Source: Lineus longissimus
Lineage: Eukaryota; Nemertea; Pilidiophora; Heteronemertea; Lineidae
Assembly (NCBI RefSeq): GCF_910592395.1
Contig: NC_088316.1
Location: 14,012,001 to 14,076,000 of the forward strand
Direction: 5' to 3'
DNA length: 64,000 nt
The notes below the pieces were generated by a model. The model worked only from the letters and a program-made list of their open reading frames with translations, did no database searches and was not told the DNA's origin. Of this stretch, positions 32,251 through 40,792 are shown piece after piece; positions within the stretch are counted from its first letter, which is position 1; each line of letters begins with the position of its first letter. A program made the position numbers and the translations under genes.

Positions 32251-35200
32251 ATGCCCACTAATTGCCCTTTACCGCCCAAGGAAAATACCCTCTTCAAGAG
32301 GATTCTGGTGAGGCCGTAGTTCAATCAAAAACGCCCCTTTAATCCGACCCGGCCCATCTGGCGAAAACCCGACTACATTTGTGTACATTTTTGTGTACAT
32401 TTCAGTGTGTATTGAAAGCACTAGAAATGACAGTGCAAATCAGATGTGTCCTGCCCAAACATGGCTTCTTCTTCTGATCTTTTTGAATTTAAGTACCAAC
32501 GTCTGCGTTGATTATGTTGTGAATTGTCCACACAATGTTTGGCCTTTTTTATGAGAATGATATGACTAGGGCCTATGTTGATGATTTTTCATATCGGGAT
32601 TGTCATCGATTAGATCTTTCAACCACATTTCCCTCGTGAAAAGTGGTAGAATGGGCGGTAGAATGTCCATACCCGACAATCCACCACCTCGTAATACAAA
32701 TGGGGTAGTTATTTAATAGACCTTTCCAACAAAGACGATCGAGGGCCCAAACAAAACAAATGTCCACATTCAGAACATGTAGAAACTAGAAGGCCTTGCC
32801 CTTGGTAAACTTCGTACAATGCCATAACTCACTGTGTCATGTGACCCTTTGCTCCAACCATGTAAACGTATGACTAGTGGGCACCCAAATATACTTCTTT
32901 GAAAAATGTCCAATCATATTGGTGTTAATCTTTTGCAGAAATGTTATGAACACAAACAGTATAAAAATGGGTTGAAGTTTGCCAAGCAGATCCTCACAAA
33001 CCCAAAATTCACTGAACATGGCGGTAAGTAGTACTAGTTGCTGTTATGTTAATTATTTGTTAAGTGTATTCCTTGCTGGATTAAATGAACATCCAAATAG
33101 AAAAGATGCATTGCAGAATTCTTTCTGTATAAAATCACTTAACCTCTGGTTTCGTGTAAGGTCCTGGTATTGTGATTCCAGTTGAAAGTAGAAGACTAGA
33201 CTAAAAAAATCAGTAAGCTTTTAGTCTCTCCCTTCACTCTTAAAATTCAAGAACAAGGACAAGAACCATAATGAACCTCTTGTTTTGCAGAGACCTTGGC
33301 CATGAAGGGCTTGACCCTGAACTGTCTTGGCCGAAAAGAAGAAGCATATGAATTTGTTAGGAAGGGTTTAAGGAATGATCTCCGTAGCCATGTGTGCTGG
33401 CATGTTTATGGTCTACTACAGAGGTCTGACAGAAAGTATGACGAAGCAATCAAGTGCTACAGAAATGCCCTCAAATGGGATAAGGTGGGTTGAACATCAG
33501 TTCTTTAGAACCTCAACAATAATAATGTCAAGTACCACCCCACCTCCCTCTGAATTATAGGTGTAGAAAATCAGCTTGAGCTCTCACTGGCCTTTGCAAT
33601 TGGTATCCAAGTTTTTGCAAGGACTGAAATTGGTTTGCTCAAAATTTCTATTTCATCTTTTCAGGACAACTTGCAGATTCTGCGAGACTTGTCCCTCCTC
33701 CAGATTCAGATGCGAGATCTTGAAGGCTATAGGGTAAGGTCCTATCTCTTTGTGATGTCTTAATGGGCTCTCTTCATGATATGTGTTGGTTCTTGTCAGC
33801 ATTTTGATGAGCCAGTGCAGTTCGGCCCTAATTGATATTCATGGCAAAATCGCCAACCAGACAAGACATCTATCACAGGCTACTTGTGTTTCTCACTTCT
33901 ATGTCTTCATTTGCTTGCCCTGGAATAGCTACCAGGAAGAAGAAATATCAAATAAATACATCTCGATCAAAGGACAACAGTGCAGTCAAGTGGTGTGTCT
34001 GTGCTGAGTATCAAATACAGCATGGCCAGGCCAGGTCAATGAAATGAACAACCTTCTATTTGGACATGCGTCTTCATGACATCCCTGGATCCTGATCAGT
34101 GAAAAGCCGCTGTTGACACTTTCATTTCTTTCCTTTCAGGACACACGGTATCAGTTGCTTGTGTTACGCCCAGGTCAGCGAGCATCATGGATTGGGTATG
34201 CCATGTCCTATCATTTACTCAAGGATTATGATATGGCAATAAAAGTGCTAGAGGAGTACCGGAAGACTCAACAGGTATGTAAAAATTGCTCTATTGTCCA
34301 GTCATTGTGGTAATCATGTATTGCTGTGGTGCAACTGGGCTGGTGTTATCCTGTGCAAATGATGTTTCCAATAGATCCTTCTGACCATCTCTGTCAAGTA
34401 CTCAAGAAATACGGTTATGGACTACTGAATGTGAAATTTTACTGATGCACAATTATTTACCTTAAATATCTTAACATGTAATGCTTGTCCACATTTCCTT
34501 CCCCTCCATTTCATTCCCCTCCTTCACTTTCAGGTAAAGCCAAACGACTATGAGCATAGTGAGTTATTACTGTACCAAAACATGGTGCTGCGGGAGGCAG
34601 GTACGCTGGAAGAAGCCCTCAACCATCTTCGAGAGTTTGAGGAGCATATTGTTGATAAGCTGGCTGTCAGTGAAATTCAAGGTATGTTGGTTCCAACGAC
34701 GGTTCAATATTACTCAATATTTGCAAAAGATCCCTCTTGTCATTCAGCGTCTATAAAAAAGATGCAGTTCTGGGTTTTGAATGAGAGGAGTTTACTAATT
34801 CATGTTAAATGTTGGCTTGTGAAAAGAGTTATCCTTTGTGATGCAGCCATGATGATGTATTGGCATGTTCCCTGTTCAAATCACTCCTGACTAAGAGCGA
34901 GTCTTTACAGGACTTCTAAATTTAAGCTATAGTGCATATTAGAGTAAAGGCTGGTGACAAAGTCATACTCGATCGATCGTTGTGACTGTATTATTGTGAC
35001 ATTCACATGTCATCGTCATTTTCAGCTCAAATTCTTCAAGCCCTCGGACGCCATGAGGAAGCTGCTAGTCTTTATAGGGAATTGAACCAACGGAATCCCG
35101 AAAACTGGGCGTATTACAAAGGGATAGAAGAGAATGAAAAGCCAAGTAAGTAATGCCTCGTGAGCCTTACGGTTGTATTGCAATTCTAGGCTCTTAGTGA

Positions 35201-40792: not shown

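Follow-up and report, generated by a model that had tools for sequence, protein, structure and literature searches.

In vertebrates, the box C/D snoRNA SNORD62 is represented by two copies, SNORD62A and SNORD62B, which lie ~4.8 kb apart on human chromosome 9 according to the m6A positions listed in PMC5579392 and belong to clan CL00068. U62, snR41 of yeast and snoR41Y of Arabidopsis are tabulated for the corresponding nucleotide of the small-subunit rRNA, Am590, Am541 and Am543, respectively, in a comparative table (PMC3511168), and the Am590 methyl group is visible in a map of the human 40S subunit (PMC10164566). In the course of evolution, snoRNAs reportedly change hosts (PMC3511168).

Placement of several copies in one gene is also documented. 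In chicken, C/D snoRNAs often occupy several introns of one host; in the table of that survey (PMC2653536), U14 is found in introns 5, 6 and 8 of HSPA8, U18 in introns 2, 5 and 6 of RPL4, and four introns of a single gene carry the HBII-99 counterpart, four being the maximum per row and host. Chicken U58 has five copies, but these are spread over two hosts (PMC2653536). Human C/D families are said to sit mostly within one host (PMC8178906).

Here we describe five units of this kind, together with two decayed copies, in the introns of the NAA15 gene of the nemertean Lineus longissimus, found in a 64-kb stretch of genomic DNA (hereafter, the window). As with U14, U18 and HBII-99 in chicken, one guide is present in several introns of one host, but with five living and two decayed copies the NAA15 set exceeds the four per host of the chicken table, and the living copies alone exceed the vertebrate SNORD62 pair. 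Given that multi-intron copies are known in vertebrates and that host change is reported, the arrangement is ordinary in kind, and NAA15 stands out as a new host and as a large example of it. We consider it highly probable that the units are intron-encoded box C/D snoRNAs and the nemertean counterpart of SNORD62/snR41, processed, acting and copied as proposed below. NAA15 would thereby be added to the hosts of an ancient guide RNA, and the copy gain and loss frozen within this one gene bear on how intronic snoRNAs move.

Both the host and the visible history of gain and loss of the unit are apparently unreported. Among the matches listed in the open-licence literature, judged from titles and the openings of abstracts, no report of NAA15 as a snoRNA host was found, and none of the SNORD62 literature listed there has NAA15 as host. 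The only match for snoRNA and Lineus in that literature concerns, by its title, mitochondrial genomes, and among the matches listed for Nat1 and Drosophila none is, by title, on Nat1 as a snoRNA host.

Host gene and anatomy of the units

The coding region of NAA15, the auxiliary subunit of NatA, was rebuilt from the window as 20 exons joined in a single open frame (856 codons and a stop), with GT-AG at all 19 introns. Comparison with protein databases showed that the 856-aa product matches the NAA15 protein of Lineus longissimus at 100% identity from end to end, the second-best of the 120 matches listed being that of another nemertean, Tubulanus polymorphus (68%). The preliminary description had placed five sense units in introns 5, 8, 11, 13 and 14 of an NAA15 gene, and both the identity of the host and the positions and strand of the units agree with the 20-exon model (Table 1). 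On the sequence evidence, NAA15 is a real and well-formed multi-copy host of predicted snoRNAs.

Table 1. Coordinates of the host gene, the five units with their accessory segments, and the decayed copies (window positions)
Feature	Location	Positions	Strand	Elements
NAA15 (NatA auxiliary subunit) coding region, host gene		32251..40792	+	20 exons, spliced open frame
Copy 1	intron 5	34352..34451	+	C 34359-34365, guide 34365-34380, D' 34381-34384, D 34442-34445
Copy 1 accessory segment		34398-34404	+	GTACTCA
Likely decayed copy	intron 6	34717..34802	+	unit positions 11-98; D', D and most of C box lost
Copy 2	intron 8	35697..35797	+	C 35704-35710, guide 35710-35725, D' 35726-35729, D 35788-35791
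Copy 2 accessory segment		35742-35750	+	GTGTACTCA
Copy 3	intron 11	37000..37099	+	C 37007-37013, guide 37013-37028, D' 37029-37032, D 37090-37093
Copy 3 accessory segment		37046-37052	+	GTACTCA
Decayed copy (near certain)	intron 12	37504..37565	+	37504-37527 best kept, weaker similarity to 37565
Copy 4	intron 13	37959..38058	+	C 37966-37972, guide 37972-37987, D' 37988-37991, D 38049-38052
Copy 4 accessory segment		38005-38011	+	GTACTCA
Copy 5	intron 14	38569..38669	+	C (ATGGTGT) 38576-38582, guide 38582-38597, D' 38598-38601, D 38660-38663
Copy 5 accessory segment		38614-38622	+	GTGTACTCA

The five units, each 100-101 nt long and all on the + strand within 34352-38669, are identical to one another at 91 to 97 of 101 columns, depending on the pair. 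All have 6-nt complementary ends, and the terminal stem is present in each predicted fold; it reads TGTGCA/TGCACA in four units, whereas copy 2 ends in TGCATA, resulting in one G-U pair. The C box is ATGATGT in four of the five (6 of 7 letters of RUGAUGA) and ATGGTGT (5 of 7) in copy 5. The 16-nt guide TTTCCAATAGATCCTT, the D' box CTGA and the D box CTGA are invariant. The stem, boxes and guide attributed to these units earlier are present in every copy, and the single G-U variant described then is that of copy 2. A profile built from the five copies recovers them in a search of the whole window at E <= 7.6e-33, scores that are partly by construction.

The folding energies of the units are no better than those of shuffled sequences (z from -0.47 to -1.31), so that folding lends no support. 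C/D RNAs usually behave in this way. For the C' box, which is degenerate, the best candidate found by eye is GTTATGG, with 5 of 7 letters; eukaryotes are described as often having poor C' boxes (PMC8413462).

In all five copies the D' box and the next nucleotide read CTGAC (34381-34385 in copy 1). The A of the same GAC context is listed as N6-methylated in vivo in human SNORD62A/B, and on a U62A motif the N6-methyl mark stopped proper binding of 15.5K in vitro (PMC5579392). To judge from these letters, the context for a putative N6-methylation/15.5K switch is kept in the Lineus units.

Relationship to SNORD62 and complementarity to 18S rRNA

SNORD62 (RF00153) is the best Rfam match for all five units, at 28.2 (copy 1), 32.2 (copy 2), 28.7 (copy 3), 26.2 (copy 4) and 30.5 bits (copy 5), all below the curated cut-off of 39 bits, and an Rfam search at the gathering threshold returned no matches among the five. 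Over the whole window, the E-values of the units for this family range from 0.02 to 0.8, and there is no SNORD62 match at E <= 3 elsewhere in the window. The match extends to the 3' stem in three units but stops at 37084 in copy 3 and at 38045 in copy 4, that is, 15 and 13 nt short of the unit end. No other Rfam family matches 34352-38669 convincingly; snoR44_J54, with 23 and 19 bits, scores far under its cut-off of 48 and was rejected. Thus, the kinship with SNORD62 suggested in the preliminary description stands as the best match of every unit, but at 26.2-32.2 bits it does not amount to curated membership; because the scores are under the cut-off, we refer to the units as SNORD62-like, in the sense of a functional counterpart.

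The Rfam consensus of SNORD62 shares with the Lineus units the guide and D' letters UUCCAAUAGAUCCUUCUGACC, and has an accessory segment at the same place. The SNORD62 model spans 86 positions, compared with the 100-101 nt of the Lineus unit. The human host of SNORD62 is PRRC2B. In chicken, the host is LOC417177 (intron 8; PMC2653536), as opposed to NAA15 in Lineus; host identity with vertebrate SNORD62 is, in our view, not a defining feature.

Complementarity was assessed with 18S sequences of other phyla as proxies for that of Lineus itself, namely, a printed tardigrade sequence (PMC5830310) and printed primers and probes; for some calculations, a composite was used that consists of the tardigrade piece with the ant/salmon letter (see below). 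The guide of every copy forms 16 consecutive pairs with tardigrade 18S (13 Watson-Crick and 3 G-U), in agreement with the complementarity to invertebrate 18S proposed for this region at the outset, and an A stands opposite the fifth base counted from D'. The energy of the guide duplex, computed on the composite with the tardigrade guide site, is -22.9 kcal/mol. Because the guide letters are those of the SNORD62 consensus, this A should correspond to the nucleotide tabulated for U62, snR41 and snoR41Y; the equivalence with A590 and SNORD62, suggested previously, accords with the human, yeast and plant site in print (PMC3511168). Most likely, then, the units would direct methylation of the A590-equivalent of 18S, the predicted target that they have in common with snR41 (RF01218) and snoR41Y. 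Mammalian 18S reads GATCCATTGG at the guide site (macaque primer, PMC10162512), which implies one mismatch to the Lineus guide and likewise to the guide of the SNORD62 consensus. A second guide, preceding the D box, was rejected as a conserved feature, with at best 8-9 pairs including G-U in the 18S piece tested, dependent on the copy; in this respect the units differ from snR41, which has a second listed site, snR41-II (given for 18S-Gm1122 of Neurospora).

Downstream of D', the units carry a further segment complementary to 18S. The loop that follows D' reads GTGTACTCA in copies 2 and 5, exactly complementary over 9 nt to TGAGTACAC in 18S primers for fire ant (PMC3511524) and salmon (PMC1314898). 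This site precedes the guide duplex by 15 nt in tardigrade 18S. Against the composite, the 9-nt pairing was reached by 16 (copy 2) and 28 (copy 5) of 5000 mononucleotide shuffles of the middle part, whereas the accessory pairing of copies 1, 3 and 4 is 7 nt long and was reached by 351, 339 and 341 of 5000, respectively. A change in tardigrade 18S cuts the accessory run of copies 2 and 5 to 6 Watson-Crick pairs; by eye, a G-U pair would bridge the break. The 18S letters that would complete both pairings are AGGATCTATTGGA for the guide and the fire ant and salmon letters given above for the accessory segment.

The corresponding segment of the Rfam SNORD62 consensus, GTGGACTCA, pairs over its full length with TGAGTCCAC of a goat 18S probe (PMC10138370), a match equalled in 14 of 10000 mononucleotide shuffles. 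When the partners are swapped between SNORD62 and copies 2 and 5, 5 nt of pairing are left. Read from these proxies of other animals, the two pairs (GTGTACTCA/TGAGTACAC and GTGGACTCA/TGAGTCCAC) provide comparative evidence for an accessory contact with one putative compensatory change. The role of this second pairing as a helper that holds the target is putative. In snR13 and U18, extra base-pairing is described in which a non-guide segment pairs near the target (PMC5389607), as the Lineus segment is predicted to do; for U18, the extra pairing had no effect on efficiency in the construct used (PMC5389607). That paper names neither U62 nor snR41, and no title among the matches listed reports extra pairing for SNORD62. 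The matched change in the accessory segment and 18S speaks for a real second contact in animals, which can be tested with SNORD62 in human cells.

In the mechanism that we propose, each unit would be released from an NAA15 intron after splicing. Trimming would leave about 95-100 nt, the 6-bp terminal stem keeping the ends together, and the C/D core proteins would package the product. The D' guide would then pair with 18S slightly 5' of the 530-loop region, and fibrillarin would 2'-O-methylate the A five nt from D' (A590 in human, A541 in yeast), while the segment in the D'-C' loop would pair ~15 nt further upstream and help to hold the target. The set itself would have arisen by repeated copying of the unit into existing introns of the same gene, with at least two older copies having decayed.

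Decayed copies and proposed spread of the unit within NAA15

The two decayed copies are an addition to the five units recognized earlier. Introns 6 and 12 were chosen after a scan of all 19 introns with 100 shuffles each, as the sole two above every shuffle; in the remaining 12 introns, similarity to the unit was not above shuffles in the same scan. Under strict gap costs, the scores are 38 for intron 6 and 40 for intron 12, neither reached by any of 1500 dinucleotide shuffles; under loose gap costs, the scores are 57.5 and 53.0, reached by 2 and 4 of 1500, respectively. Outside the gene, 183 places read on both strands gave 366 stretches of 300 nt, among which the best scores are 30 (strict) and 52.5 (loose). 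The copy in intron 12 includes 24 nt at 91.7% identity (E 2.5e-4 in the window) and keeps the 5' stem strand with one change, a C box reading ATCATGT and the first 11 nt of the guide, but has internal deletions after 37527 and no D box. In the profile search of the whole window, the copy in intron 12 is detected at 37504-37528 (E 0.038) and that in intron 6 at 34719-34799 (E 0.12), with all else at E >= 0.27. Considering the weak profile E-values and the selection after a 19-intron scan, we regard a decayed copy as likely in intron 6 and near certain in intron 12. Together with the five living copies, this indicates that 7 of the 19 introns have held the unit; no further copies were found elsewhere in the 64-kb window on either strand.

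Because the exons follow in order in one open frame, the introns were not duplicated with exons; it is the unit that moved. The flanks of the units show no similarity above shuffles in any of 20 comparisons (in the most extreme one, 19 of 300 shuffles were as good), which disfavors simple segmental copying and favors copying of the unit alone, without its flanks. Ordinary cis-recombination of gene segments, the flanks of which have since diverged beyond recognition, is a genuine possibility, if not the one we expect, given that this is described as the prevailing manner of growth for C/D families of human and chicken (PMC8178906, PMC2653536). However, copies 3 and 4 are alike at 97 of 101 columns while their flanks lack similarity above shuffles, and neutral co-copied flanks should still be recognizable unless gene conversion kept the units young.

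Copying of the unit alone may have proceeded through RNA-level insertion, small DNA-level copying or gene conversion. The edges of the units are sharp but fall at the terminal stem, a feature that selection would preserve in any case. No target-site duplications were found, the longest words common to the 25-nt flanks being 4-5 nt and never at both edges, and inspection by eye revealed no 3' A-tail adjoining any unit; old marks of retroposition may have eroded. A more specific and fairly unlikely scenario is that NAA15 served as a landing ground for a snoRNA spreading at the RNA level, with stem-bounded units inserted at least six times and lost by decay, and the living copies split into 9-nt and 7-nt accessory classes. 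If so, the two classes would constitute a small natural experiment on accessory pairing with rRNA. A chicken survey suggested that retroposed snoRNAs arose in mammals (PMC2653536), so that a nemertean case would be unexpected.

Whichever the route, we propose that the five living units stay alike by selection, gene conversion or recent origin. Variable columns number 14 of 101 overall, 2 of 42 in the boxes, guide and stem as opposed to 12 of 59 in the remainder (Fisher p 0.039). It is somewhat unlikely that the snoRNA is made by just one or two of the copies, such as those of introns 5 and 8, and that the rest are passengers toward decay: this lower variability of the functional columns and the invariance of guide, D' and D in all five units argue otherwise, although recent copying or gene conversion could be another cause of the invariance. 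The two decayed copies do show that loss occurs, and the C box of copy 5 is weakened. C/D snoRNAs favor a position ~70-90 nt from the 3' splice site. The distance from the end of the D box to the acceptor is 88, 78, 165, 183 and 168 nt in copies 1 to 5, respectively, that is, under 90 nt only in copies 1 and 2, and the 165-183 nt of copies 3-5 would fit passengers. That the units represent a genome-wide, snoRNA-derived short interspersed repeat which often landed in NAA15 by chance is very improbable, as all seven copies in the 64-kb window are located in introns of one 8.5-kb gene, all in sense orientation and with neither a target-site duplication nor an A-tail next to the units, even if the sharp edges and unrelated flanks would suit such an element.

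Other features of the window

A very strong hairpin is located at 26993-27061 on the - strand, with a weak match to the Rfam family MIR845_1 (36.7 bits, cut-off 81). The 135 nt folded yield -54 kcal/mol, with an uninterrupted run of 17 pairs plus additional short helices, and elsewhere in the window the hairpin has just short matches of 11-22 nt; a microRNA precursor is one possible reading, a short palindromic element another. Tandem repeats occur at three places: an array with periods of 64 bp, 53 bp and 234 bp at 13650-14443; a minisatellite at 24656-25664 with 19.2 copies of a 53-bp unit and a higher-order period of 368 bp at 95% match; and two near-identical 64-bp tandem copies (98% match) at 30139-30272, ~2 kb upstream of NAA15.
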